Assembly (NCBI RefSeq): GCF_018143015.1
Contig: NC_054747.1
Span: 37,439,733 to 37,503,732 of the forward strand
Reading direction: 5' to 3'
DNA: 64,000 nucleotides
Source of the DNA: Lytechinus variegatus
Taxonomy: Eukaryota > Echinodermata > Echinoidea > Temnopleuroida > Toxopneustidae
The notes under the pieces are model-generated. The model was not told the origin of the DNA. It did no database searches and was given only the letters and a program-made list of their open reading frames with translations. Position numbers and translations under genes: made by a program. Positions 3,875 through 51,892 of the stretch are shown piece by piece. Positions within the stretch are counted from its first letter, which is position 1, and each line of letters starts with the position of its first letter.

Positions 3875-3919
3875 AGAAAAAAAAACAAGTGAACAGTAAT
3901 TATTCTTGAAGGTGCAGAG

Positions 3920-6150
3920 ATGGTCCATATCTGTTCTAACTTGAAAACGCAGAATCTACACCTCATTTCTCCTAATGTCAGAGGCACTCGGAATAAAGGA
4001 AAACGGGGCGTTATTTTTTCATGGTTATCTTTTCAAAAAGCGAATGTAATTTTATTACAAGAAACCTTAACAACTGAGCTAGAATATGCGTTTAGATCAG
4101 AATGTGGTGAACTGTGCTTTTTCAACCATGGAACGAATCATTCTAAAGGTGTTGTGACTATAATAAAGAAACAGGATAACATGGAAATACTCGAAACTTT
4201 TGTGAAAATCGACGGAAGGGCAATTGCTGTAAGATTAAGTAATAAGAAAAAAGTATACTTTCTTCTTAATGTTTATGCCCCAACTATTAAATCTGAAAAA
4301 GAAATATTTTTCAAGATAATGTATAACTGGATAAGAGATATAAAACAAAAGGGTGATTTACTCGTATTTGGAGGTGATTGGAACTGTGTACAAGATCCCA
4401 AGCTTGATACCCAAGGTTGTTCACAGGCTTATAAACAAATTAAAGGGTTACAAAATATCCAGAATAAATTTAGTCTAAGTGACGTATGGCGAAAATGGTA
4501 TCCACTCGGAAAACAATTTACCTGGCGTCAATTATCGTTAGGGATATCATCTCGACTTGATTACTGGTTGATTTCTTCATCATTGTATTGTAATGTTCAA
4601 AGTACTGATATCAGACCTGCAATCAAGTGTGATCACTGTGCCATATCACTAAAATTAAGGATAGAAAGTGTTACGAGAGGAAAGGGGACATGGACCTTTA
4701 ATAATTCATTATTATATGATTCCGTCTATAAGAAACATATTAAGTGTATTATAAACTCTACATTATTTCAATGCTACATGTATATGAATGCAAGAACCAA
4801 ATGGGATATGTGTAAAATAAGGATTAGAGAGTTTACCATGCAATTCGCCAAGCAAAAACAAATTGAAAAGATGGAATGGTATAAAAGAACGTACGAAAAG
4901 TACATGTTATTGTGCAGGAAAGTTGACAGTGGAAATTATGAAAGAAACGACATAGCAAGAATGAACGATCTGAAAACAGATATTGAAAAATGGTATGCAC
5001 ATAGATGTAGGGGCGCATGTGTAAGATCTCGCGAACGGTGGATGGAATCTTGCGAAAGATCTAACAAGTATTTTCTCAATTTAGAAAAGAAAAATGGAAA
5101 ACAAAAAGAAATTGACTGTATAAATAAAAATGGAAAAATCATTACTGGTTATGGAAACGTTATTAAAGAAATAGCAAATTATTACAAAGACTTATACTAA
5201 AAAAAGTCTTCAAGAGTACATTCCGAAATAAAAAAAGTACCTAAAAATACAAATTTAACTACTCGTTCTGAGGATGATGCACTGGCTTGTGAAGGCTTAA
5301 TAACAGAAAAGGAATGTTTTGAAGCGTTAAAAACAATGAGAAATAACAAATCCCCTGGCAGCGATGGACTAACTGCAGAATTCTATCGGTGCTTCTGGGA
5401 TGATTTGAAGTATATGTTGATCGATAGTTTAAACGAAGGCTTTGAAAGTCAAGAGTTGTCTGAAAGCCAGAAACAGGCTGTCATTAAATTGTTGCATAAA
5501 AAGGTGACAAGAGAGTAATAGACAACTGGAGACCAATTTAATTGTTGAACATTGACTACAAGATCCTTGCAAAAGCACTTTGTAAAAGATTGTATGCTGT
5601 GCTAGAAAACATCAGATCTCTGCAGATCAGACTGGTTATTTAAAACAACGTTCCTCTGTACAAAACATCCGCCTTGTTTTAGATACTATGAATATTGTCA
5701 CTACAAGAACTCCCCAGGGATTTTAATTTTTCTAGACTTCAAGAAAGCATTCGATAACTTAAGTCACAAATTCCTTTTTTTGTTACTAGATAGACTGAGT
5801 TTTAAAGAAACTTTTAAAGTTTGGGTTAAAATTCTTTATAACGATGCGATAGGGAAGGTAATTAATGATGGTTGGGTCTCCAAAGAATTCAAAATAGAGC
5901 AAGGTGTGAGGCAGGGTTGCCCTTTATCAGGTCTCCTCTTTATACTGGTCGCCGAAGTCATGGCAGTGAGAATAAACAAAATGCTTACATTCATGGAATT
6001 CAAATTCCCTCAGAAAATCCAGTCATGCCGGTTGGTATTGTTCAAGAGAATGTCGTCATGTCACAATTGGCAGATGATGCTGTTATATTTGTAAACTCTG
6101 TAGAGTCGAGAAATTTGGCTTTGAAAGAAGTTGAAACGTTTGGTCTTTTA
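3920..6150 (+). pseudogene. LINE ORF2, endonuclease and N-terminal reverse transcriptase part
   Basis: The first 426 codons (3920-5200) are an APE-type endonuclease. LISPNVRGTRNKGKR is the start motif, ILLQET holds the catalytic Glu, GDWNCV the Asp/Asn, SSRLDYWLIS the late Asp, and CDHCAIS occupies the position of the usual SDH. A TAA stop at 5198-5200 interrupts the frame. Downstream reverse transcriptase motifs are NNKSPGSDGLTAEFY (about 5340), GVRQGCPLSGLLF (about 5900) and QLADDAVIFV (about 6065), the catalytic box with L in place of the usual Y/F. Further frame changes lie between 5520 and 5780. The spacing and the QGCPLS context fit the L1/Tx1 group. At 6150 the frame is broken by the 8.9 kb transposon and resumes at 15048. 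Confidence 0.85.
6142..6150. repeat. 9 bp target-site duplication, left copy
   Basis: GGTCTTTTA lies immediately left of the GGCTTATGTCGAAAGGG terminus. An identical copy is at 15039-15047. Confidence 0.9.
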
Positions 6151-12240: not shown

Positions 12241-13343
12241 GTCTCACCTGCGAAGCAAAGTGAGACTATAGGCGCCGCTTTTCCGACGGCGACGGCGGCG
12301 TCAACATCAAATCTTAACCTGAGGTTAAGTTTTTGAAATGATGTCATAACTTAGAGAAAATATATGGACCTAGTTCATGAAACTTAGACATAAGGTTAAT
12401 CAAGTATTACTGAACATCCTATTACAGTTTCATGTCACATGACCAAGGTCAAAGGTCATTTAGGGTCAATGAACTTAGACCATGTTGGAGGAATCAACAT
12501 CGAAATCTTAACCTGAGGTTAAGTTTTTGAAATGTCATCATAACTAAGAAAATATATGGACCTAGTTCATGAATCTTGGACATAAGGTTAATCAAGTATC
12601 ACTGAACATCCTGCATGAGTTTCACGTCACATGACCAAGGTCAAAGGTCATTTAGGGTCAATGAACTTTGGCCGAATTGGGGATATCTGTTGAATTCCCA
12701 TCATAACTTTGAAAGTTTATGGATCTGATTCATGAAACTTGGACATAATAGTAATCAAGCATCACTGAAAATTTTGTGCAAGTTTCAGGTCTCTTGATTA
12801 AGGTCAAAGGTCATTTAGGGTCAATGAACTTTGGCCGAATCGGGGGTATCTGTTGAATTACCATCATAACTTTGAAAGTTTATTGGTCTAGTTCATTAAA
12901 CTTGGACATTAGAGTAATCAAGTATCACTGAACATCCTGTGCGCATTTCAGGTCACATGACCAAGGTCAAAGGTCAATAAACTTTGGCCGAATTGGTGTA
13001 TCTGTTGAATTACCATCATAACTTTGAAAGTTTATGGATCTGATTCATGAAACTTGTACATAAGAGTAATCAAGTATCACTGAACATCCTGTTCGAGTTT
13101 CAGGTCACATGATCAAGGTCAAAGGTCATGTAAGGTCTATGAACTTTGGCCATGTTGGTTTTTTTTTGTTGAATAACCATCATATCTCTGTAAGTTTATT
13201 GGTCTAGTTCATAAAAAGTGGACATAAGAGTAACCATGTATCACTGAACACCTTGTGCGAGTTAGAGTAGTATTCAAAGTCAGAACTGCTGCTATATTGA
13301 ACCGCGTGATGCCGGTGAGACTGCCAGAGGCATTCCACTTGTT
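12241..13343. mobile_element. HINE/Helentron-like element A with tandem core
   Basis: One end is GTCTCACCTGC...GTGAGAC, an inverted hairpin. The other end carries GGTGAGACTGCCAGAGG, so GTCTCACC is inverted at the two ends. Between them is a tandem core of five to six units of about 150-190 bp, each with ATGAACTTTGGCCGAATTGG, CATCATAACTTTGAAAG and CACATGACCAAGGTCAAAGG. A terminal stem-loop plus a tandem core in T-rich DNA resembles HINE/DINE/pearl non-autonomous Helentrons. That classification is inferred; the structure is seen. Confidence 0.65.
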
Positions 13344-23191: not shown

Positions 23192-24353
23192 TAAAAATAC
23201 TTATATTATGAATCTTGGCATGAGAAGAATGTTGTTGTAATTTCAGACTTATTGAATCCACCTCATCCTGGACATAAACTGTTTGAAGAACTTATTTTAG
23301 ATTTTGATATTCCTGTGTCTGATAGGAGAAAATACAATTTTTAATGAAAAATATTCCAATGGAGTGGTTTAATAGAACAGTTTTGACTAATGTACATGTT
23401 CATGATATTTTGATTACTAAACTGATTAATGCGAAAAAAGTACCATGTTATGCCTATAAAATTTTGAATGTGCAATATCTTCCAGATAGACGGTACAACT
23501 ACTGGAATGAATGCCTATCAATCCCTGTACCCACTTTGTGGGAAAAGGTACATAAAGCCAATTTCTTTTGTACTATCGATACTAAACTCCGTTCCTTTTA
23601 CTTTAAGATTTTTCATAATACTATAGCTCTAAATGCATTTCTGTATAAAATCAAAAAGAAAGATTTACCAAACTGTACATTTTGTGATAATGAAGAGGAA
23701 TCAATAATTCATCTGTTCTGTGACTGTGATAAGGTTACCCCAATTTGGAATCTTCTATTGACTACGATAAAAAAACATATTTCAGATTTCAATCTCACTA
23801 ATTTTCAAAAATTGTTTGGTGTATCAACGGATAGATTTGTTACTTACCTTTTACTATTGGCCAAATATTATATTTATATTTGTAAATTCAAGAACACCTT
23901 ACCAATGTGGATTTATTTAAAAGTTTTGTGAAGAAACAAAGGAAATTGAGCATCACCTAGCCAAGAAAAGAATCAAACTCACTGTACACTTTAAGAAGTG
24001 GCGATTTGATATATGATTTTTTTATTTTGGATACAGGTAGTTCCCCCTTTTCCATTCTATTTGTTTTTGTATCTTAAATTGAGACTTGTACAATGCACAG
24101 AGTAATATGCTACAAATGATTATACATGTAAATTCATCTCGATGTGTATTCCCTTTAGAGTAACCTGTATCGTCCAATGTTTTATTTTGATTTATGTCAC
24201 CCTTTTTATTTTTTTCCATTTATTTTTATTTATTTCATCTTTGTTTTGTGATTTTACTGCTTTTGAACTGTTTTAAATCATTCAATTACCTGTAAATATT
24301 GTGATAATATGTGATTTTGAATACCAATAAAACACATAATAATAAAAAAAAAA
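23192..24353 (+). mobile_element. 5'-truncated LINE insertion with target duplication
   Basis: The ORF at 23344-23931 contains KLRSFYFKIFHNTIALNAFL and CTFCDNEEESIIHLFCDCD, the zf-RVT region of LINE ORF2 C-termini. A 3' UTR ends AATAAAACAC plus an A-run at 24353. The 15 bp AAGTTTTCCCATTTA occurs at 23177-23191 and again at 24354-24368, a target-site duplication. The intact 195-codon ORF and clean duplication suggest a fairly young insertion. Confidence 0.8.
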
Positions 24354-24368
24354 AAGTTTTCCCATTTA

Positions 24369-25490
24369 CAGAAATGGATTGTAAGAGTCCCCCTCTTTGT
24401 TGCTAATTCTTTTCTTCTCTTTGATCCCCCCTAATACTATTTTTTATTTCAATCAATGAAGGTTTTTTTAATTCTCGGTTTTTGTAAATAAGATATTTAA
24501 CTAAAATCAAGACATGATTAATTAATTGATATTTACCTTTACTTTTCTCCTGCTTCCCGAAAAGAATTTCCTGCCAACTAAATTTATTATTTCAAATTTT
24601 AAACTTCTTGCACATAAATCCCAAAGTGATTTTGAAAATTCACAAGTATAAAATAGATGTTCATACGTTTCTTCTTCCTTTTCACATAATGAGCATAAAT
24701 TGGTCGAAATAAGACCAAAACGGAAAAGGTGGTGGTTAGTGTATAAAATATTATGCAAGAGTTTATACTGGAACTCCCTTAATCGACTATTCAGTGTGCA
24801 ATATCTTAGTCTTAAAAATATACTTTCTATTTCCTTATTGGTAAGATCATAATTCGTTCTAATTCTGTCAAAAATAGAAGGTTTAATTTCATTTTTATAT
24901 AACAGCTGTTCGTATATTTCTTTTGATTTTAAAAACATCAAATTAGTCGTTTTCTTACCCAAATTGAAATCGATTCCAGAGTTATGCTTTGCATTTATTT
25001 CAATATTGTTCTTCCAACTAACAGGTAAACAGGCATAAATATGCTTAATCTTTTCAACATCATTTGCATCTAAATTCAAATTAAGAAAATGTGTATCACA
25101 TTTTAGTTTACCGTTATTATCCAAAATATGATGCAGTCTATAAACCCCTTATCGTATAGAATCTTATCAAATATACAACTCCCTTTATATCGAATAAGCT
25201 TATTATTAAAAATCACCACTTTCCCAAACTCTGTACTTCTAATATGTCTTATATTTACCCACTCTTCTAATAAGTCCATGTAAAATTTGGAAGCTGTTAC
25301 TTTCAATAAACCTGGTATATAGTCACATGAAAATAACAAATCTCCACCCAAATGTTTAGTGGCAAAATTAAAGTACCGTTTCCATTTCATATCTTCATCT
25401 TTATTTAAAAGTCTTTTAATCCACATTATTCGCTGTGCCTTTACCTGTACAGGGAAGTTTAACATCTTTAATCCTCCTTGCTTATTATGT
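24369..25490 (-). pseudogene. LINE ORF2 C-terminal fragment (minus strand)
   Basis: Two minus-strand frames, 25465-25103 and 25124-24522, overlap with a frame change at about 25110. The first reads MLNFPVQVKAQRIMWIKRLL; the second carries LREFQYKLLHNILYTNHHLF and CSLCEKEEETYEHLFYTCEF. This is the same zf-RVT-bearing ORF2 region as in the 23-24 kb and 16-17 kb fragments. It predates the plus-strand LINE, which inserted into or beside it. Confidence 0.75.
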
Positions 25491-26065
25491 TTATTTGAAT
25501 CGATAGAGAAAAATCAAACAAACATAACGCTGCAAATTTCATCGAAATTGGATGTAAAATAAGACAGTTATGACATTTTCAAGTTTCGCTTATTTTTCAC
25601 AAAACAGTTAAATGCACAACTCAGCGATATGCAAATGAGAGAGTCGATGATGTCCATCACTCACTATTTCTTTGGTTTTTTATTGTTTGAATAATACAAT
25701 ATTTCAATTTTTACAGATTTGACAATAAGGACCAACTTAATTTAACCATAAACTATTAAAATAATGGTAATTCCACATGTTCAGGGAGAAATAAAACTTT
25801 GTTTCACTTGACAAGGAGGAAACAATTAGAATATTTCATATAATAAAATACAAAAGAAATAGTGAGTGGGTGACTTCATCAGTCTGCCAATTTGCAAACC
25901 GACCAGGATGTGCATATAACTTTTTTTGTGAAATTAAGCGAAAATTTAAAATGTCATAACTTTCTTATTTTACATCCGATTTTGATGAAATTTTCATTGT
26001 TTTACTTGTTGGATTTTTATCCTTTTTTCAAATCAACTTTTTGTTGGGGTGGACTTGTCCTTTAA

Positions 26066-27342: not shown

Positions 27343-28205
27343 ACTGGTCCCACTGCCCGACGGATACAAAATACATTCATAAGGGACACGGCGAACGAGC
27401 AAAATTTCTCGGGTGGCTCCATCCGTTTATCCTCTCCAGAAATGGACAAAAATGACGAAAACATGACGGAAAGGAACGAATATGGTAGAATGTAGCGCAG
27501 ATGTTAAAGTTTTGTTCATCGGAAACCTTGCAGATGAAAACGGAAGGAGGTGTATGACGGTTCCGACTGGGTTAATTCGGGTTTAAGGCTTTATTTACTG
27601 TACGAGCTTCATACGCTTACATCCTTTCTAGACGTTCCATGTACAATCTTTCCTCCCTCTTTCCGTAGTTCAGCTTCAGTGGATCTGAGTTGCGAGGATG
27701 CAGAGCAGCGGCGTACCCATGATTTTTCAAAAGGGGGCAAAAATTTTTTGAGGATATTTCGTCCGCGAAAAAAATTGTCAAGCAAAAAAAAGGTCTTCAA
27801 GTAAAAATGAGGGGGCACGTCTGTTTTCATTGCATTTTTACATTACAAATTATTAATTTTGCTTCTCAAAGCTCGTCAGGGGGCAGGGGTACGTCCCCTG
27901 CATCAGTTGTGACTCGTCAGGGGGGCAGTCGCCCCCCCCCCCTTAGGTACGCTAGTTATGCAGACAGGATAAAGATCAAATTTGACGGATGAAAACGGAC
28001 ATGGAACGTTTGTCGCTCGTATGTTGCGGATTCACATCGTTTATCTGTTCTATATGTTTCGTTCATCTCAAAACTGTTTTCCAGGATGAAATCACAGTGG
28101 GCGGATGATCGATGGATAGAGCGTATGTAACACGTATGCAATTAGCAAAAGATTGTTGTGCGTTTTACATCCGCTTAGCATCCGTAAATGCAGAGGGACT
28201 ACACT
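27343..28205. mobile_element. element with GGTCCCACTG-type ends, host to a hAT-like MITE
   Basis: Starts GGTCCCACTGCCCGACGGAT and finishes with a reverse-complement GTCCCTCTGCATTTACGGAT, with CATCCG-type motifs near both ends. A second member with the same ends is at 28493-29320. The left end coincides with the flank of the 27168-27342 MITE, so the left boundary is approximate. Confidence 0.45.
27706..27957. mobile_element. hAT-like MITE with 8 bp duplication
   Basis: Left end CAGCGGCGTACCC, right end AGGTACGCTAGTT (inverted). Flanks ATGCAGAG (27698-27705) and ATGCAGAC (27958-27965) match in 7 of 8 positions. CAGNGGCGTA ends and 8 bp duplications are hallmarks of hAT elements. A partial copy of its right half is at 45205-45305. 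Confidence 0.75.
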
Positions 28206-29320: not shown

Positions 29321-30050
29321 CACATGTATTATAATTTGTTTGGTACAGATATAACAGATTAAAATTCCTAAGTTTATGTCACTTTTGCTTATTGATGAAT
29401 AAACTGTCATTTCTGTGATGTATTCCTTTTTCGCACCTCCTTCTCATCCCCTCTCTCCCTTTCTATTTTCCAGTCTCTCTCTCTTTTCCTATTGATGCTT
29501 CCGCTTTGCAATTTTACCTGAAAATGACGTGTGTAAAAATATTCTGTTTATACGCTAAAACCCTCTATGTATCTATTTTACTAGGCAAGTTTGTTTTTTA
29601 GAAATATTACAACATTTTGATTTCTTGAGTTTTGTTTGATTGTGCAATTTATTGTTATATATTCTTGTATTTAATTGTTTTGTAAAAGGGGGCTATAATC
29701 ATTATAGGCTGCGAGTGAATTTTCAATAGACTTTCCATTACCACGCTTTTGAAGACTTTTTGGTATAAGTTTTGTTTCACAGGTTTTATCTGCATCAAGA
29801 TATTTTGGTTGTAATAAGTCATTTATGACACCAAAAACGACTTTGACAAGTTTCACGTTTGATTTATTTCATTTATTAACTCAATTAGATAGCATAGATA
29901 TAAAATGCCAACCATACAAATCAGTGGAAATGAATATGCATTGTAAGCAGCATTAATGAACAATGTGATCATCAATAATCACCCCCCCCCCCGCTCATCA
30001 CTTTTTAGAGACTGGGCGGGAGATTTAAAAAAAAACAATCAGCTCGAAAC
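29321..30050. other. AT-rich flank of the foldback element
   Basis: Nothing coding. A C-run at about 29985-29996 precedes the foldback element; a longer C-run follows it at 38067-38083. Confidence 0.4.
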
Positions 30051-30057
30051 CCCTGTT

Positions 30058-30276
30058 ACACCCACAAATGTAATAATCGCCCACAAATGTAATAACGCCC
30101 ACAAATGTAATAACACTTTACCCACAAATGTAATAACGCCCACAAATGTAATAACACTTTACCCACAAATGTAATAATTTCATCCACAAATGTAATAATG
30201 CACTTTACCCACAAATGTAATAATTTTTGATCGCCCACAAATGTAATAATGACTTTACCCACAAATGTAATAAATT
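30058..30276 (+). repeat. left outer array, 10 units of CCCACAAATGTAATAA
   Basis: Ten units with spacers (TCG, CG, CACTTTAC, CG, CACTTTAC, TTTCAT, GCACTTTAC, TTTTTGATCG, GACTTTAC). The same spacers appear in mirror order in the right array. Confidence 0.92.
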
Positions 30277-30349
30277 TGAAGGGATTTTTGGCAAATCCGT
30301 TCTAAACTAAAATCGTATAGTAATGCGTTCATTTAGCACAAAAGTGCAA

Positions 30350-31800
30350 AGTCTCTTTTCCTGACCCGGTCAATCAACAAATTATAATATAAATCCAAAG
30401 TCTTTATTCCAGACCCGGTTGTTTCAAAAATAAGAATATGAGCCCAAAGTCTTTATTCCAGACCCGGTTGTTTAAAAAATTATAATATAAGTACAAAGTC
30501 TTTATTCCAGACCCGGTTGTTTCGAAAATAATAATATGAGCCCAAAGTCTTTATTCCAGACCCGGTTGTTTCAAAAATAATAACATGAGCCCAAAGTCTT
30601 TATTCCAGACCCGGTTGTTTAAAAAATTATGATATAAATCCAAAGTCTTTTTCCAGACCCTGTTGTTTCAAAAATTATAATAAATCAAAAGTCCTTTTCC
30701 AGACCCGGTTGTTTAGAAAATAATAATATAAGTCCAAAGTCTTTATTCCAGACCCGGTTGTTTAAAAAATAATCTTATGATCCAAAAGTCTTTATTCCAG
30801 ACCCGATTGTTTCAAAAAAGATAATATAAGTCCAAAGTCTTTTCTCCAGACCCTGTTGTTTCAAAAATTATAATATAAATCCAAAGTCTTTTTCCAGACC
30901 ATGTTGTTTCAAAAATTATAATATAAATCAAAAGTCTTCATTCCAGACCCAGTTGTTAAAAAATAATAATATAAGTCCAAAGTCTTTATTCCAGACCCTG
31001 TTGTTTCAAAAATTATAATATAAATCCAAAGTCTTTTTCCAGACCCTATTGTTTCAAAAATTATAATATAAATCAAAAGTCTTCATTCCAGACCCGGTTG
31101 TTAAAAAAATAATAATATAAGTCCAAAGTCTTTATTCCAGACCCGGTTTAAAAAATAATCATATGAGCCAAAAGTCTTTATTCCAGACCCGATTGTTAAA
31201 AAAATAATAATATAAGTCCAAAGTCTTTATTCCAGACCCGGTTTAAAAAATAATCATATGAGCCAAAAGTCTTTATTCCAGACCCGATTGTTTCAAAAAT
31301 GATATTAGTCCAAAGTCTTTATTCCAGACCCGGTTGTTTAAACAATAATAATGCAAGTCCAAAGTCTTTTTCCAGACCCTGTTGTTTCAAAAATCATGAT
31401 ATGAATCCAAAATATTTTTCCAGACCCGGGTGTTTAAAAAATTATAATTTTAGTCCCAAATGAGATACATTAATGATATTCCAGTGGAATAAAAATGAGA
31501 ATCGAGCTTAGTCTTTTCTCCAGACGCTAATGGTAAATTGAAAATCATGCATAGTCTTTGCTCCAGACCCGGTAACTAAAAGCTGAAACTTTATAGTAAT
31601 GTGTTTATATAGCACAAAAATGCGAAATCTTTTTTTCCAGACCCGATTAATTAAAAAATTATAATATAAGTCCAAAGTCTTTTTTCCAGACCCATTTATT
31701 TCAAAAATTATAATAATTATAAAAAAACAAAGACCCACGATCCTATTTATGTTGAATAACATGGAAATGTAGCGTAGTCTTTCTGTCAGACCCAGTTATA
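30350..31800 (+). repeat. left array of ~49 bp units
   Basis: About 27 copies of AAAGTCTTTATTCCAGACCC followed by GGTTGTTTCAAAAA and an AT-rich spacer, at intervals of about 47-50 bp. Units near the centre of the element are more diverged. Two sub-variants alternate (with ...TTTTTCCAGACCCTG or ...TTTATTCCAGACCCGG). Confidence 0.9.
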
Positions 31801-31850
31801 AAAGTCATTAAAAACACAACAACAACAACAAAACAAAGACCCTGCAACCA

Positions 31851-32454
31851 TTAAAGGTCAAGTCTTCTTCAGAAAAATGTTGATTTGAATCAATAGAGAA
31901 AAATCAGACAAGCACAATGCTGAAAATTTCATCAAAATGGATGTAGAATAAGAAAGTTATGACATTTCAAAGTTTTGTTTATTTTTAACAAAATAGTTAT
32001 ATGAACGAGCCAGCTACATCCAAATGAGAGAGTCGATGATGTCACTCACTCACTATTTCTTTTGGTTTTCATTGTTTGAATTATACATTATTTCAATTTT
32101 TACGAATTTGACGATTAGGACCTCCTTGCCTAAAGCACAAAATGTTAAAATAATAAATTTCCACGTGTTGCAGGGAGGAATGAAACCTCATTTCACATGA
32201 CAATGACGAGAAAATAAAAATATTTCATATTTCATTTAACAAAATACAAAAGAAATAGTGAGTGAGTGATGTCATCAGTTCCTCATTTGCATACCGACCG
32301 AGATGTGCATATAACTGTTTTGTGAAATGAAGCGAAACATTAAAATGCCATAACTTTCTTATTCGATTTTGATGAAATTTTCAGTGTTATGCTTGTTGAA
32401 TTTTTCTCTTTTTATTCAAATCAAAGTTTTTGTTGGGGTGGACTTGTCCTTTAA
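31851..32454. mobile_element. T1 MITE, best-preserved copy
   Basis: TTAA at both ends; left TTAAAGGTCAAGTC, right GGTGGACTTGTCCTTTAA. The arms pair over most of the length (AAGAAAGTTATGACATT against its complement, ACTCACTATTTC against its complement). A non-autonomous TTAA-target DNA element (piggyBac or Kolobok type inferred). Confidence 0.82.
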
Positions 32455-32456
32455 AA

Positions 32457-32645
32457 AAAAATATTTTCTTGTATATTCTTTCCTTTTTTCTATGAAAAAA
32501 CCTAAATAACAAAACATTAAAATACATATGAAAAAAAACTGAGAAATAAGATATCAGTAAGCAATAGGGGGATTACTTCCTGAAAACGATAAAGTTGTTG
32601 ATTGACGATCTATGATATATTATATAAAAGAAAAACATTATAACA
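32457..32645 (+). repeat. ~185 bp direct repeat, copy 1
   Basis: Shares ATATTTTCTTGTATATTC, AAGATATCAG, GGGGATTACTTCC and TATATAAAAGAAAA with 33893-34075. The two copies flank HINE-like element C. Confidence 0.75.
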
Positions 32646-32772
32646 AGAGGGGATAACCATTCCATTCCATGTTTTTATTTGGCAATAAGTCATGATTGAC
32701 TATTTTATGCCACCCACTGTATGAGAAGTAGGGTAACAATTTTATTTAGTATTATTTTTATTACTTCTTTTT

Positions 32773-33878
32773 GTCTCACCTGCATAGCAGAGTGAGACTA
32801 TAGGCGCTGCTTTTCCGACGGCGGCGGCGGCGTCAACATCAAATCTTAACCTAAGGTTAAGTTTTTGAAAAGACATCATAACTTAGAAAGTGTAAGAACC
32901 TAGTTCATGAAACTTGGCCATAAGATTAATCAAGTATTACCTAACATCCTATCAGAGTTTCATGTCACATGACCAAAGTCAAAGGTCATTTAGGGTCAAT
33001 GAACTTAGACCATGTTGGGGGAATCATCATCAAAATCTTAACCTGAGGTTAAGATTTTGAAATATCATCATAACTTAGAAAATATATAGACCTAGTTCAT
33101 TAAACTTGGACATAAGATTAATCAAGTATCATCAAACATCCTGCATGAGTTTTACATCACATGACCAAGGTCAAAGGTCATTTAGGGTCAATGAACTTTG
33201 GCCGATTTGGGGGTATCTGATGAATTACAATCAAAACTTAAAAAGGTTTCGGATCTGATTCATGAAACTTGGACATAATAGTAATCAAGTATCACTGAAC
33301 ATCCTGGGCAAGTTTCAGGTCACATGGTCGAGGTCAAAGGTCATTTAGGGTCAATGAACTTTGGCCGAATCGTTTTTTTTTTGTTGTTGGTGAATTACCA
33401 TCATAACTTTGAAAGTATGTTGGTCTAGTTCATTAAACTTAGACATAAGAGTAATCAAGTATCACTGAACATCCTGTGTGCATTTTAGGTCACATGAAAA
33501 AGGTCAAAGGTCAATGAACTTTGGCCATAATGGGGTATCTGTTGAATTACCATCATAACTTTGCAATTTTATTGATCTGACTTTTGAAACTTGGACATAA
33601 GAGTAATAAAGTATCACTGAATATCCTGTGTGAGTTTCAGGTCACATGATCAAGGTCAAAAGTCATGTGAGGTCAATGAATTTTGGCCACATTGGGGGTA
33701 TTTGTTGAATTACCATCCTATTTCTGTAAGTGTATTGGTCTAGTTCATAAAACGTGGAAATAAGAGTAACCAAGTATCACTTAACATCTTGTGCGAGTTA
33801 TAGTAGTTTTCAAAGTCAGCACTGCTGCTATTTTGAATCGCGTGATGCAGGTGAGACGGTCAGAGGCATTCCACTTGT
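32773..33878. mobile_element. HINE/Helentron-like element C
   Basis: Same architecture as element A (12241-13343): GTCTCACCTGC hairpin end, CGACGGCGGCGGC motif, tandem core units of about 160-190 bp, and a GGTGAGACGGTCAGAGGCAT end. Like element A it has a five-unit core, so these are two members of one subfamily. Confidence 0.65.
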
Positions 33879-33892
33879 TTATTATTATTATT

Positions 33893-34075
33893 TTTTGTAT
33901 ATTCATTCCTTTTTTTTATGAAAAAAAACACAAAACCTTTAAATACATATAAAACAAAAAACTGATGAATAAGATATCAGCACACAATATGGGGATTACT
34001 TCCCGTAAACGATAAGGTTGTTGACCGACGATCGATGAGATGTTATATAAAAGAAAATCATTCTAACAAGAAACG
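33893..34075 (+). repeat. ~185 bp direct repeat, copy 2
   Basis: See 32457-32645. Overall identity is high but with several small indels. Confidence 0.75.
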
Positions 34076-34339
34076 TTTGAACGTTTCAACAAGTTCTTCG
34101 GTACTTTAAATTTTCAGTGTACCAAGCACCATTTGTAATATATTCAGCATTTTTTTTTATTAGTTACAATTCCAATAATCTCAGTGGCCTAAGATATATT
34201 CTCTGGGGTTATAGTGACCCGTTAAGTAAAGAGAGAGAGAGAGAGGATTTATGTGATCAAGAAGTGATAAGATAGGAAAAACTGATTTGAAATGACTGAA
34301 AGAGAGACAGGCAAAGAAAGAAGAGCCCCCTCCCACACC

Positions 34340-34605
34340 CGTACCAGAGTTACGGAGTTAGGCTGTCCCGTCGGTAGATTCAGGTCCATCAACATCTTGA
34401 GGTTTAATCTTTCCAGGGGGCAAACGTGTGTGTGTGTTTGAGTTTTGTCAGACGTGTCTCAATCAGATATGATTATTTACGTCTGGGACCGACCTTTAAC
34501 GTCACCATCCGAAAGACGTGACCAGGGCTCGAACCTCGACCCTCTGCATCAATTTGTAACTTCCCCACAGCTTGGATTACAGGCGCACGCCACAACGCCC
34601 AGTCT
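34340..34605 (-). mobile_element. tRNA-derived SINE-like sequence
   Basis: On the minus strand GGCGTTGTGGCGTGCGCC is followed about 50 bp later by GAGGTTCGAGCCC, matching a pol III B box, then TCTTTCGGATGGTGACGTTA and AAGGTCGGTCCCAGACGT, a block common in tRNA-derived SINEs of marine invertebrates. The head also resembles the 7SL/Alu start, but only over about 25 bp, so a tRNA-type SINE is preferred. Confidence 0.5.
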
Positions 34606-34814
34606 TTAAATATGGTGTAGTCTTTGCTCTAGACCCATGCAGTTATTTCAAAATAGGAAATTATTAGAAACGATAAAAACAGACAAACAATATTAACCAA
34701 GACGCCACAATATCATTGATGTAGAATAACGTTGTTGTTGTTGTTATTTTGGGTATTTAAAGCGCGTACCATTCAGATCTAAATATTTACGCCTTTTCTT
34801 AATTTGACGTTTTG

Positions 34815-34880
34815 TGGTATTCAATTCAATTCAATTTTATTACTTCACTTCCATCAAACAAAAACAAGTTGTATACCAAC
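34815..34880 (-). mobile_element. LINE 3' tail fragment
   Basis: Same terminus as 2456-2515 with a (TTGAA)n tail on the minus strand. It lies near the turn-point of the foldback element. Confidence 0.5.
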
Positions 34881-35079
34881 TTACGGTATGCCTTATCACA
34901 GGGTTTTATAGTTTGGGAGATGCTGGTGTCTAAGTTTTTAGATTAATCTTTTGCTTAATTTGTATTTTAAGAGAACTGGATGTGGGGTAAAGACAACTCT
35001 CTAAACCCAAGCATTTAACTGGGTTTGATTTTAAAGATTGGTCTTAGCTTTGATTTTTTTTCAATATTTATTTATCTTA

Positions 35080-37760
35080 TAAATATCTGGGTCTAGACGA
35101 AGGTCTAAGCATAATAATAATGCTATTCAACAGGAATAAGAATATGACAAAGTCTTATGTTTTTAAGATTGTTTGAATTAATTTCTAAATGACTGGGTCT
35201 GGAATAGAGACAACGCTCTAACATGTGCTTTTGTACTTGGTCTTAATTTGGAGGATTGTTGGTTCTTAGATTCGTTGTTGGGGGTTGGGCTTTATTGTTT
35301 TTCATTCTTGAAATAATTGTGTCTGGAGAAAGTCTACAATCGATCTCCATGTTATTCCACTGTAGTTAGATTATTGGGTATTTGTTTTAGACAATTTTAT
35401 TTTTAAATAATAACCAAGTCTGGAAAATGGACGTTTTCTTTGCAAATGCATAATTACAATGTTTGGTAGGGGTCTTAGTATTATTATACAAAAGAATCTG
35501 GGTGTGGGGTACAGACATATTTTTTACTGGGTGTAACTTTTGAAAACTGGTTTTAGATTTAATTTTCTTTTTTTAATTCATTTCTTAGATAACCTGGTCT
35601 GGAGGAAAGAGTACGTTTTACAACTCATGTTATTCCAAGAGAATATGATAGGGTCTTATGTTAGATTTTTTTCGTAATTTTTGTAATAATTAGGTCTGGA
35701 ATATAGACAACATTCTAAACCTCTTTTTAAAAACATGTTCTTAGGTTCAAGGATTGCTTGGTATTAGATTTGGAGTTATTTATATTTTTACTCTTAGCCT
35801 TATTTTGAAAAACAAATGACTGGGTCTGGCTGAAAGACTACGCTATATGTCCATGTTATCCAGCATTAATAAGATTATGGGGTTCTTTATACGGTTTTTT
35901 TGTTGTTGTATTGTTATTTAAAATTTTTGAATAACAGGGTTTGGAGAAAAGGCTAAGCTCGATTTTCTTTTTTTCCACTGGAATATCATTATGGTATCTT
36001 AGTTTGGACTTATATTATAATTTTTGAAATAACTGGGTCTGGAAAAAAGACTTTGGACTTACATTATAATTTTTGAAACTACTGCGTCTGGAAAAAGACT
36101 TTGGGCTCATATTGTGCTTTATGAAGGCATTACTATAGGGTTCTAGTTTTTAGTTTTAAATAACCGGGTCTGGAGAAAAGACTATGCTTGATTCTCAATT
36201 TACTCATAGCGTGTGTATTCACAATACGTTCAGTACAATTTAAAACAACAACAAAGACTTTGATTCCACCAGTTTTAATTAACTGGGTCTGGAGAGAAGA
36301 CTAGGCTCGATTCTCATTTTTATTCCACCGGAACATCATTATCGTATCTTAGTTTGGACTTATATCATAATATTTGAAACAATCGGGTCTTTGGAATATA
36401 TTATTATCTTTTGAACAACCGGGTCTGGAATAAAGGCTTTGGATTTATATTATGATTTTTGAAACAACAGGGTCTGGAAAAATACTTTGGATTTATATTA
36501 TAATTTTTGAAACAACGGGTCTGGAGAAAAGACTTTGGACTTTATTATCTTTTTTTATACAATCGGGTCTGGAATTAAGATTTGGATTATTTTTATTTAA
36601 TTTTTTGAAAAACAACACAGGGTCTGGGTGAAAAAAAGACTTTGGATTTATATATTATTTTTTTTAAACAACCGGGTCTGAAGAAACGACTTTCGGACTT
36701 ATATTATATTATTATTACATTTTAATTTCTGGTAACAACGGATAAATGATTTTGGCTTACGGCATCTTTGATTTTTCTTAAACAAACGGTCTGGAATAAA
36801 GATGGTCTTTTGATTAATCATATTAATTTGAAGGGTCAATACGGGGTGGGTCTTAATAAAGATTTTGGAATTATAGGGTCTTATTAATATATGTCTGAAA
36901 ACAAGGGTCTGAAATAAAGAAAAAAACTTTGGATTTATATTATATTTTTTTTAAACAACCGGGTCTTGAAAGGGTTTGGAACTTACATTTATTTTATCTT
37001 TTTTGAAACAATCGGGTCTGGAATAAAGACTTTAGGCTCATATGATTATTTCTTAAACAACCGGGTCTGGAATAAAGACTTTGTACTTATAATTATCATT
37101 TCTGAAACAATCGGGTCTGGAATAAAGACTTTGGACTTATATTATAATTTTTGAAACAACAGGGTCTGGAAAAAGACTTTGGATTTATATTATAATTTTT
37201 TTAAACAACCGGGTCTGGAGAAACGACTTTGGACTTATATTATCTTTTTTGAAACAATCGGGTCTGGAATAAAGACTTTACGCTCATATGATTATTTCTT
37301 AAACAACCGGGTCTGGAATAAAGACTTTGGACTTATATTATCATTTTTGAAACAATCGGGTCTGGAATAAAGTCTTTGGACTTATTTTATTATTTTCGAA
37401 ACAACCGGGTCTGGAATAAAGACTTTGGATTTATATCATAATTTTTGAAACAACAGGGTCTGGAAAAAGACTTTGGATTTATATTATATGTTTTTAAACA
37501 ACCAGGTCTGGAGAAACGACTTTGGACTTCTATTATCATTTTTTAAGCAATCGGGTCTGGAATAAAGACTTTAGGCTCATATGATTATTTCTTAAACAAC
37601 CGTGTCTGGAATAAAGACTTTGTACTTATATTATAATTTTTTAAACAACCGGGTCTGGAATAAAGACTTTGGGCTCATATTATTATTTTTGAAACAACCG
37701 GGTCTGGAATAAAGACTTTAGATTTATAGTATAATTTGTTAATTAACCGGGTCAGGAAAA
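35080..37760 (-). repeat. right array of ~49 bp units
   Basis: Dozens of GGGTCTGGAATAAAGACTTT units with TTTTTGAAACAACC spacers. They are the reverse complement of the left array. Units from about 36.4 kb outward are well conserved; those from 35.1 to 36.3 kb are degenerate. Short ORFs over the array are repeat artefacts. Confidence 0.9.
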
Positions 37761-37844
37761 GAGACTTTGCACTTTTGTGCTATATGAACGCATTACTATA
37801 CGATTTTAGTTCAGAACGGATTTGCCAAAAATCCCTTCAAATTT

Positions 37845-38062
37845 ATTACATTTGTGGGTAAAGTCATTATTACATTTGTGGGCGATCAAAAATTATTACA
37901 TTTGTGGGTAAAGTGCATTATTACATTTGTGGGTGAAATTATTACATTTGTGGGTAAAGTGTTATTACATTTGTGGGCGTTATTACATTTGTGGGTAAAG
38001 TGTTATTACATTTGTGGGCGTTATTACATTTGTGGGCGTTATTACATTTGTGGGTGCAACAA
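37845..38062 (-). repeat. right outer array, 10 units
   Basis: Ten TTATTACATTTGTGGG units, the mirror of 30058-30276 unit by unit and spacer by spacer. The following C-run and AAAAATCCTGCGTACGCGCC may belong to another element at the junction. Confidence 0.92.
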
Positions 38063-38099
38063 CCCCCCCCCCCCCCCCCTTTCAAAAATCCTGCGTACG

Positions 38100-49555: not shown

Positions 49556-51892
49556 TTAAACATAATCTGACATTTCATCATCATCAAGGGAAAAAGCACC
49601 GTCGTATTCATCATCATCACCTCCATCGTCATCATGATTATCCTCCCTGTCAACAAAAGGTTCAGCATCATCATCTTCTGGGGTAAAGTTAAAACTGATA
49701 TCTTTAGAGGTACTTGCAATGTCAGCAGAAGATTGCATTAATTGGTGTTCTTGATCAATGTCCTGATCTTTGCTGGGTACCTTTTTAAATGAAGAACCAT
49801 CATGGTCACTATCAACCTTAGGAACACTATTACTGTCGGATTCATGATTATTTAAAGTATTTGTAGTATCTTCTAGATCTGAATGGTCATGGTTGTTGAG
49901 TGTCTTTGAGGATTTGTTGAAATCATCCAGGTCACTGCCCTTGGAGAGCATCTGACGCAGGAACACCCCAGACACCGCTTGGGAATCATCATTCATGACA
50001 TCAAAGCCATCATCATCCATGTTATCATCGAAGTCATACATAGGGTCATCGTCATCATCGTCATCATAATCTTCCTTGTGTTTAGTGTTGGCACGGCGAG
50101 CAGTCTTGGCACTGTCTTTGCCACGGTGGTACTTTCGCTTGTGTCTGGCAAGGTAACGCTTCACGTGAAACTCTGCATCGCATTGATCACATCTGTACAC
50201 CTTACCTTCGACGTTGTGGAGTTGCATGTGGACGCTGAGCGCCGTCTTGGATTTGAATTTCTTGTCGCAGATGGAGCAGGTATGGCTGTACACGTCAGAA
50301 TGCACGATGTTGATGTGTCTGTTCAAGTACCACTTGATGGTGAAGGCACTCCCGCAGGTTTCACAGACGTGAGGCTTGACATCGGAGTGGATCTTCTGGT
50401 GCTTCACAAGGAGCTGGCGAGTGGAGAACGTTTTGCTGCACGTTTCACAGGTGAAGGATGCGTTGGTGTGCGTACCTTCATGGACATGCCGTAGATGATC
50501 AGTCAGGAATGTCTCGGAGCATATTCTACAAGAAAAGGATTTCTTCGGTTTTGTCCCAGGAGAGTCACCCTCACCATTTCTGGAGATGTAGCGGTTGTGA
50601 ATCGCTCTGTAATGTCGCAGGAGTGATCTGCGGGCCAGAAATGTCTTACCACATTCCTCGCATGTGCTATCAGTTCCATCATTTTGGACTTTACTCGGAG
50701 TACGCTTTTCTCGCGATGCAGCCCTGGGATACGTATCAGGGGTTTTTTCACGGGATGATTCTCCACCTTCAGTATCCTGTAATTCACCTTCTTCTCCGTC
50801 GTCCTCCTCCAACACATCACCGTCCCCATTGCCACTCTCAGAACCCTCATCTTTACCGTGAGCTTTACGGACATGCTTGTCGCGCGATGACTCCTTGAAG
50901 AACAGCTTGCCACATTCCTTACAGAGGAAGCGTTCCCGATTCTCATGGATTTTCTCATGCCACATAAGAGATGCTTTCCTGTAGAAGGACTTTGGACACT
51001 TGGAACACTTGAAGGACTTGATACCAGTGTGCTGCAATTCGTGCTGTTTGAGGTTGGTCTTTTTGGAAAAGCGATGTCCACACTCCTTGCACTCAAAGGG
51101 CTTCTCACCTGTATGCACACGCTCATGATGAACCAATTCTCTTGGGGTACGGAACTGTTTAGGACAGTACTTGCAGTGGTGTGGCTTATGGCCAAGGTGC
51201 ATTTTTTCATGAGTTATTAGATAGTCTGGATTCTTGAAAGTCTTATTGCAATAGGAACATTGATGGGGGCGCTCTTCTGAATGTGTGCGTCTGTGGCGAT
51301 TGACTTGGCTGCTGGTCGCAAAGGAACTCTCACAGATCCCGCATTTGTAGGGCTTCTCTCCCGTATGGGTGCGTTCATGCACCTGAACATCTCCGATCCG
51401 AATGAAACGCTTGGGGCAGAAACGACACTGCAAGGGCTTGTCGTTGCCGTGCGTGCGTTTGTGGATGCGGAGCGCACTCCGTGTACGGTAAACGTTTCCA
51501 CACTCCTGACACATAAACGGTGCTTCGCCTGTGTGCGAGCGGACATGATCATCATACCTGCGCCTTTCATGGAATACCTTCGGGCAATACGGACACGGCA
51601 TGGTCTTGTCCTCATGTAGACGAGAGTGAAACCTCTTGCAACCAAGAGTTGGAAATGCCATGTCGCAGTAACAGCACACGTAAGGTGGTTTGCCAACCAG
51701 ATCTTGTAGGTGCCGTTCCAGCTTACGGGGCTGCTCATAGATGATGTTACAATGTTCACACTGGTAGTACCGCTTCTCCCGAGTCTTGGTACGAGGTTTG
51801 GCTTTTCCAGAATTCTTGGGGTTGATGGGCAAGGTGGGGCATGTCCCTACACTACTTCCTGTTCGTCTCAGTTCCATTTGCTCTTCCAGCGC
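49556..51892 (-). CDS. C2H2 zinc-finger protein, last exon (17 fingers)
   Basis: 778 codons after acceptor TTATTTTTAG| (exon starts GCGCTGGAAGAG at 51892), phase 0. It encodes one degenerate (YYQCEHC...) and ten canonical C2H2 fingers, an acidic linker with GESS/TPDT, then six more fingers, and a very acidic C-terminal tail (DDDDDDDPMYDF ... DDDEMSDYV). Several links are TGEKP-like (HTGEKPYKC, HTGEKPFEC). It is predicted to be a nuclear sequence-specific DNA-binding regulator. The frame is intact. Large antisense ORFs across this exon are shadows. It belongs with exons at 53817, 54584 and possibly 59693. Confidence 0.9.
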   Translation of the reverse strand, partial: ALEEQMELRRTGSSVGTCPTLPINPKNSGKAKPRTKTREKRYYQCEHCNIIYEQPRKLERHLQDLVGKPPYVCCYCDMAFPTLGCKRFHSRLHEDKTMPCPYCPKVFHERRRYDDHVRSHTGEAPFMCQECGNVYRTRSALRIHKRTHGNDKPLQCRFCPKRFIRIGDVQVHERTHTGEKPYKCGICESSFATSSQVNRHRRTHSEERPHQCSYCNKTFKNPDYLITHEKMHLGHKPHHCKYCPKQFRTPRELVHHERVHTGEKPFECKECGHRFSKKTNLKQHELQHTGIKSFKCSKCPKSFYRKASLMWHEKIHENRERFLCKECGKLFFKESSRDKHVRKAHGKDEGSESGNGDGDVLEEDDGEEGELQDTEGGESSREKTPDTYPRAASREKRTPSKVQNDGTDSTCEECGKTFLARRSLLRHYRAIHNRYISRNGEGDSPGTKPKKSFSCRICSETFLTDHLRHVHEGTHTNASFTCETCSKTFSTRQLLVKHQKIHSDVKPHVCETCGSAFTIKWYLNRHINIVHSDVYSHTCSICDKKFKSKTALSVHMQLHNVEGKVYRCDQCDAEFHVKRYLARHKRKYHRGKDSAKTARRANTKHKEDYDDDDDDDPMYDFDDNMDDDGFDVMNDDSQAVSGVFLRQMLSKGSDLDDFNKSSKTLNNHDHSDLEDTTNTLNNHESDSNSVPKVDSDHDGSSFKKVPSKDQDIDQEHQLMQSSADIASTSKDISFNFTPEDDDAEPFVDREDNHDDDGGDDDEYDGAFSLDDDEMSDYV

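Follow-up and report, generated by a model that had tools for sequence, protein, structure and literature searches.

A foldback element with TU-like anatomy, 5-bp target duplications and a preference for C/G tracts

Foldback elements have mostly been assigned to Mutator on the basis of their architecture and their target duplications of 8 to 10 bp. In the TU elements of Strongylocentrotus purpuratus the long inverted repeats are divided into an outer domain of ~15-bp tandem units and an inner one, and they enclose a variable middle; TU elements fall into several subfamilies with common ends and generate an 8-bp target duplication. Here we describe an element of 8,008 bp (positions 30054 to 38061) in a 64,000-nucleotide stretch of Lytechinus variegatus contig NC_054747.1, referred to below as the window. 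It is a mobile, two-ended element without visible genes that inserts with a 5-bp stagger at G/C-rich sites, mostly tracts. We consider it probable that it is a non-autonomous foldback DNA transposon moved by an integrase-type transposase acting in trans, that it inserts at the 5' edge of C-tracts, and that its arrays are expanded spacers.

The element begins with TGTTACA at 30054 and ends with TGCAACA at 38061. Its inverted arms (30078-30682 and 37434-38038) are 605 nt long, 95% complementary and 6,751 nt apart. The 16-bp unit CCCACAAATGTAATAA is present ten times on the plus strand at the left end and ten times on the minus strand at the right end, with 19 of the 20 units exact; a search of the window that allows up to 2 mismatches finds these 20 and no others, versus 0.10 expected from shuffles. 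Arrays of a ~49-bp unit lie further in, in mirror orientation, with 23 copies on the left and 27 on the right; CCAGACCCGGTTGTTT, which lies within this unit, has 51 matches in the window at up to 3 mismatches versus 0.34 expected, on the plus strand at the left and the minus strand at the right. An earlier sequence-only reading had described ten-unit outer arrays and opposed ~49-bp arrays that pair across 8 kb, all of which is borne out. Its limits, 30055 to 38066, were correct to within one base on the left but included the 5-bp target duplication on the right.

The genome that holds the window comprises 869.6 Mb in 33 contigs (C1 to C33; L-numbers are loci fetched from it). Exact matches to the outer unit number 7,776 + 7,943 genome-wide (15,719; reversed control, 1 + 0), those to the inner unit 5,649 + 5,937 (11,586; control, 0), and those to the 23-bp terminus TGTTRCACCCACAAATGTAATAA (TGTTRCACCCAC...) 869 + 895 (1,764; control, 0). 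The window element is one of several hundred copies or more, and if most copies are two-ended there would be ~880 elements with exact ends. Two end types, A (TGTTACA) and G (TGTTGCA), differ by one base. An unselected 100 of the 1,764 ends were listed with their positions, a partner being a facing end within 16 kb; 64 of them have a listed partner.

Target duplications of 2 to 12 bp were sought in 29 elements with both ends, using left and right flanks mispaired across elements as the control. Identical 5-bp flanks were found in 20 of the 29 elements (4.68 expected), while other lengths gave 15 at 4 bp (6.64 expected), 10 at 6 bp (3.21) and 6 at 8 bp (2.32). Homopolymers account for all six 8-bp matches. 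For six elements, 5 bp is the sole length that matches (ACCCC, TACCT, GGGTA, CGGCC, GGGTC and GGGTT). Empty sites, the search for which had been suggested with the original reading, were found as paralogous copies for two elements, L018 and L126. The joined flanks of L018 align across the junction to L107 (a locus of which L091 is part) and L015; L018 was inserted in a dispersed repeat, and the copies at L107 and L015 continue across the site. L126 sits elsewhere in this repeat, and its empty copies are again those at L107 and L015. The repeat (L107:3919-4530, L015:5328-5869) contains GGATTAACGAACCTTATT-like tandem units and has been hit by the two foldback insertions separately. The element thus shows both features of the foldback class, long inverted repeats of tandem units and mobility, the latter evident from duplications and interspersed copies, and the interpretation as a foldback element put forward from the sequence is upheld by copy number, common termini, target duplications and empty sites.

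The target preference is surprising and well counted. The four-base flank is CCCC at 546 ends and GGGG at 435, together 981 of 1,764; about 10 would be expected, given that such runs occur at 0.58% of positions elsewhere in the window. If GC content is taken as 35%, ~26 ends should have an all-G/C flank and ~315 an all-A/T flank; the observed numbers are 1,091 and 1. In the target-duplication sample, 23 of the 29 elements have a run of at least four C or G on at least one side. We also collected 62 pairs of adjacent facing ends with a CCCC or GGGG flank, and when read towards the element every one of the 62 combines a C-run with a G-run, one at each side (33 CG, 29 GC), which indicates that one tract continues across the insertion.

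Insertion into these tracts looks polar. Read towards the end, runs of exactly five C (with another base before them) occur 171 times and runs of exactly five G only 10 times, an asymmetry that would place insertion at the 5' edge of the C-tract. On the most economical interpretation, the duplication consists of the tract's first five bases. Judged by eye, the first 100 listed exactly-five-C rows comprise about 56 A-ends and 44 G-ends, so the element sits in either orientation; nine of the ten exactly-five-G rows are G-ends. Among 22 run-flanked elements read by hand with the C-strand first (31 were considered, and 9 without a clear run were dropped), the longer run lies downstream in 17 cases and upstream in 5 (two-sided sign test, 0.017). 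At L009:5886-5912, a single C-tract separates two elements placed back to back (TGCAACA-C13-TGTTACA), as if the second had used the tract beside the first, and at C4:40656736-40656786 a G-end and an A-end are separated by just five C. Among the titles and abstract openings listed by a search of the open-licence literature, none reports a poly(C) target; we know of no DNA transposon with homopolymer-edge specificity, and C-tract targeting is, to our knowledge, not described for TU. The microsatellite-targeting miniature inverted-repeat transposable elements (MITEs) Ac-mMITEs and Micron are likewise non-autonomous and settle in simple repeats, but the available part of the source gives their targets as (TA)n, with Mutator-like 9/10-bp duplications in part of the copies, whereas the element described here uses poly(C)/poly(G) with polarity (PMC8449440).

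The two ends are usually of different type. A and G ends are paired in 29 of the 32 unselected facing pairs (with 2 A+A and 1 G+G), in 27 of the 29 elements of the target-duplication sample (two A+A), and in 61 of the 62 run-flanked pairs (one A+A), these samples being overlapping. The lone G+G pair among the listed ends is C1:29770421-29774475, whose centre (L099) matches L014 at 84%; L014 and C1:3980540-3988633 are A+A. Recombination between copies is a possible cause of such pairs. Comparison of the arms of 12 elements (24 arms, 2 of which were dropped because the linker anchor was not found) revealed that, over the inner 200 bp, the nearest neighbour is the same end type of another element for 19 of 22 arms and the element's own partner for none. 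For the outer array the corresponding numbers are 20 and 2 of 22. Arms are therefore closer to the same end type elsewhere, and the two ends are largely separate lineages; homogenisation of arms by foldback conversion is not supported by these counts.

Arm-to-arm identity also differs between groups of elements. In the window element, L013 and L017 it is 0.945-0.965 for the inner part and 0.98-0.994 for the outer, compared with 0.745-0.888 and 0.854-0.935 in the short class described below. L014, which is long and A+A, is an exception (inner 0.835, outer 0.941). The closer arms of the first three suggest that their class may have begun with a more recent copying of one arm. Within 22 arms, 147 of 166 outer units are perfect, although the innermost unit may fall outside the stretch cut, and the units are separated by a few classes of spacer (CG, TCG, CACTTTA, TGCACTTTA, TTTTTGATCG and TTTCA). 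Near-perfect units and few spacer classes would fit repeated protein binding sites.

Copies fall into two main length classes, ~2.2 kb and ~5-9 kb, which have arms and termini in common. The 32 listed facing pairs comprise 11 of 2.06-2.56 kb and 21 of 4.06-12.5 kb, and the 62 run-flanked pairs comprise 32 of 1.9-3.3 kb, 22 of 5.0-9.6 kb, 5 that are longer, 2 shorter than 1.9 kb and 1 just below 5.0 kb. Long copies (the window element, L013, L014 and L017, together with those stretches of L084 and L085 that were read) have a common interior, mostly 81-95% identical with short stretches down to about 75%. The middle segment is common to L013, L017, L084 and L085 at about 90-95% over most of its length and to L014 in part. 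A passenger tandem repeat within it (32833-33793) is also found inside L013, L017, L084 and L085, while L014 does not align there; its presence in several long copies indicates that the element had acquired it before much of the amplification took place. L084 and L085 additionally contain unrelated inserts, each several kb in size. The short copies L009 (with an insert), L011, L015, L018 and L021 have a different common interior. Three other observations concern interiors and arms. The passenger, a tandem repeat of 163-192 bp units (GTCACATGACCAAGGTCAAAGGTCATTTAGGG...), has a relative outside the element at window positions 12301-13263. A tRNA-promoter-like motif (GGGCTCGAACC) was seen by eye at 34440-34620 and possibly belongs to a short interspersed element (SINE) passenger. 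At L010 (C1:162107-164764), a 2.7-kb 49-bp array adjoins an A-end with no partner outer array in the 10 kb fetched, and may be either a one-armed remnant or a very long arm.

We looked for an enzyme in the parts of the copies that were read, to which all statements on transposases apply. Stop-to-stop frames of at least 120 amino acids in 13 fetched loci included no transposase frame as judged by eye rather than against Pfam. Interior stretches of 700 bp from 14 paired copies and 6 other ends matched a known element interior in 14 of 20 cases and nothing known in six; a further 18 stretches and two whole small copies matched a known interior in 12 of 20 (one over 46 bp only) and nothing known in eight. 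The sole large frame from these stretches, 897 amino acids in L106, encodes endonuclease and reverse transcriptase and belongs to a long interspersed element (LINE) nested within one of the short copies. No Mutator-like element (MULE) transposase frame was present in the stretches read, no genome search aimed at MULE having been made, and an enzyme with small exons could have escaped this inspection. A genome search with the rve profile, in which 150 of 1,102 candidates were scored, was uninformative because it was swamped by retroelements: many matches lie in long frames (>1,200 amino acids, as in retroelement pol), and of seven rve matches listed on C1:0-29.8 Mb one, in a 1,296-amino-acid frame, is within 10 kb of a listed terminus. 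Viral contigs gave 0 matches, in a set that may exclude records close to the genome of the window.

The mechanism we favour is as follows. A transposase supplied in trans would bind a landing pad of many sites, formed by the repeated 16-bp units, pair one A-end with one G-end, and cut at TG/CA. Strand transfer with a 5-bp stagger would then occur where a poly(C) tract has its 5' edge (the 3' edge, if the tract is read as poly(G)). Spacers would be provided by the 49-bp arrays and by nested passengers, expanded by unequal exchange and amplified with the element. TGTNR termini (here TGTTA and TGTTG) combined with a 5-bp stagger argue for an integrase-type DDE enzyme, either of the Ginger/Tdd kind or a retrotransposon integrase, over Mutator or P. 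According to the portions available of the sources cited here and below, TGTNR termini occur in Gypsy, Ginger1, Ginger2 and Tdd, and Tdd-4/5 make 5-bp duplications (PMC2836005), while duplications are 4-5 bp in Ginger2, a range that includes the length found here, and 3-6 bp in long terminal repeat (LTR) elements (PMC10045372). Ginger1 and Ginger2 differ in having inverted repeats of ~40-300 bp, for which the available text mentions no tandem arrays (PMC2836005). Judged from termini and stagger, an integrase-type enzyme is the mover that we favour, though at no better than roughly even odds. We propose, tentatively, that the family may stand outside Mutator and P as a foldback family with an integrase-type enzyme, two distinguishable repeat-array ends, and polar integration exactly at the 5' edge of poly(C). 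The original reading suggested that the two unit sequences may define an undescribed family; no description of this foldback family was found among the titles and abstract openings listed by literature searches, which lay outside echinoderm repeat databases and most subscription papers.

Several results weigh against this interpretation. The stretches read, which represent part of the copies, contained neither an autonomous copy nor a transposase, and 36 of the 100 listed ends are without a listed partner within 16 kb. An exact 5-bp duplication is missing in 9 of 29 elements; 6 of these 9 are one mismatch off, and among lengths 2-12 L078 matches at 3 and 6, L082 at 2 only and L050 at none. Inheritance alone could explain why A ends are paired with G ends, and the rule has exceptions in 3 of 32 pairs. 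Column diversity is 0.016 in the outer units versus 0.123 in the spacers, a difference inflated by the mixing of spacer classes and so no proof that the units are binding sites. Targets differ from those of the proposed relatives, which are CCGG/CCGT (4 bp) for Ginger1 and AT-rich RTATAY for metazoan Ginger2 in the available text (PMC2836005), compared with C/G-tracts here. The difference in target, together with the failure to find an enzyme, is why we have not assigned the element to Ginger. Finally, the empty paralogues of L018 have only five C at the site, which favours later lengthening of the tract.

This last point belongs to an alternative that we regard as somewhat unlikely, though not negligible, in which insertion takes place at a short C5 site, and slippage, either in the course of gap repair or afterwards, extends one of the duplicated copies. 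The filled site of L018 has C13 and C12 in place of the five C of its empty paralogues, and one-sided tracts of exactly five (171 versus 10) would also follow if only the G-synthesising strand slips. However, one-sided slippage does not predict that L018 should be long on both sides, and a G-rich stretch of 13-15 bases, with interruptions, is already present in the empty paralogues of L126, which speaks for targeting. C/G runs of at least 10 that do not adjoin the element also occur elsewhere in the window, such runs of C being common (e.g., at 27932, 45279, 47714, 60183, 60241 and 60822), and even under slippage the preference for G/C-rich sites remains, with an all-A/T flank at 1 of 1,764 ends. 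That the whole structure is an assembly artefact, ordinary satellite DNA or an inverted duplication that arose by chance can hardly be true. The arms do consist of tandem arrays, but sharp common termini, target duplications, 1,764 ends, interspersed copies and empty sites contradict it, and free satellite units, which the sequence-only reading had named among the findings that would refute it, have no support among the matches listed: of the 11,586 exact matches to the 49-bp unit, the 100 that were listed first form 11 clusters on C1 below 1.48 Mb, all beside outer 16-bp arrays at about 3 kb or less.

The other alternatives concern the enzyme. Because its duplications are not of the appropriate length, the element was not assigned to TU, Mutator (8-11 bp) or P. 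It resembles TU in its 16-bp outer units, ~49-bp inner arrays, two classes of middle and host group, so the earlier description as TU-like holds for anatomy; it does not extend to the duplication, which is 5 bp (20 of 29 elements, with 8 bp in 6 of 29, all homopolymers) rather than 8 bp. Neither does 5 bp fit the length in FB, or the 7-8 bp of Galileo, a Drosophila element of the P superfamily with a P-type transposase. The long, internally repetitive inverted repeats of Galileo, with extra transposase binding sites, are a point of likeness (as cited in PMC4079207). Movement by a MULE transposase, as a Mutator-type foldback like Tm1, Tetris or, as often supposed, TU and FB, is improbable. The majority of foldbacks seem to be Mutator members (PMC4079207), and Tm1, a Mutator/Foldback of root-knot nematodes, has a similar architecture of composite inverted repeats, a variable number of ~14-bp tandem units, asymmetric 7-bp terminal motifs and many non-coding copies (PMC3169594). 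The heptamers here, however, differ by just one base, and duplications of 5 bp, at which six elements match alone, contrast with 9 bp in Tm1 (PMC3169594) and 8-10 bp in Tetris (PMC4079207). We also think it quite unlikely that a Transib/RAG-like transposase is responsible. The 5-bp, GC-rich duplications are like those of Transib, but the termini, TGTTRCACCC, are unlike its CACWATG-like heptamer. Transib duplications are typically 5 bp (CCAGG in a starfish example), and sea urchins carry RAG-like genes (PMC4411706). It is unlikely, too, that an LTR retrotransposon with TGTT..AACA ends supplies, in trans, the integrase that moves the element: the arms are inverted and not direct as in LTR elements. 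Such elements do have TG..CA ends. Their 3-6 bp duplications (PMC10045372) and at least 150 rve matches scored in the genome are compatible with this source.

A TU-like architecture associated with 5-bp duplications, TGTNR ends and insertion at the edge of C-tracts suggests that foldback architecture arose more than once, and that TU itself merits re-examination. The polarity of 171 versus 10 provides a quantitative handle on either an integrase-type complex that reads poly(dG).poly(dC) or the behaviour of gap repair there. It is also unusual, beside non-autonomous elements of MITE size, for non-coding elements as long as 5-9 kb to be amplified together with nested passengers.

Table 1. Features of the foldback element and its flanks in the window (TRF, Tandem Repeats Finder).
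Feature	Position	Strand	Basis or remark
Left 5-bp target duplication, ACCCC	30049-30053		Flanks compared
A-type terminus, TGTTACA plus first CCCACAAATGTAATAA unit	30054-30076	+	Terminus matches
Left outer array, 10 CCCACAAATGTAATAA units, spacers 2-10 bp	30061-30273	+	Unit matches
Linker, TTTGAAGGGATTTTTGGCAAATCC...	30274-30341	+	Present in 22/24 arms of 12 copies
Left inner array, ~23 copies of ~49-bp unit with CCAGACCCGGTTGTTT	30342-31456	+	Repeat and unit matches
Middle segment	31457-35186		Without evident coding potential; longest stop-to-stop frame 95 amino acids
Degenerate inner units, left side of middle segment	31637 and 31686		CCAGACCCGGTTGTTT matches
Passenger tandem repeat, 163-192 bp unit	32833-33793		Inside middle segment
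Degenerate extension of right ~49-bp array	35187-36388	-	Matches at 35187, 35587, 35814, 36027, 36076, 36158, 36277, 36377
TRF array within degenerate right extension	36003-36113	-	TRF
Right inner array, ~27 copies of ~49-bp unit	36389-37774	-	Tandem-repeat call
Right outer array, 10 units	37843-38054	-	Unit matches
G-type terminus, TGTTGCA plus first unit	38039-38061	- (read on - strand)	Terminus matches
Right target duplication, ACCCC	38062-38066		Adjoining C-tract extends to 38079

The echinoderm setting supposed in the original reading agrees with the mitochondrial contig, C33, which reads best with the echinoderm code. It carries COI, preceded by the large-subunit (16S) rRNA and followed by tRNA-Arg, ND4L and COII (the last two recognised by eye), a gene order that we take to be that of sea urchins. 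Its COI protein reads MNNMSFWLVPPS under code 9, presumably the usual metazoan form, and MKKMSFWLVPPS under code 5. Elsewhere in the window, a non-LTR retroelement endonuclease frame (Pfam Exo_endo_phos) is located at 3893-5200, frames at 23326-23931 and 24522-25513 appear by eye to be LINE remnants, and a single-frame C2H2 zinc-finger protein of 778 amino acids lies on the minus strand at 49556-51892.

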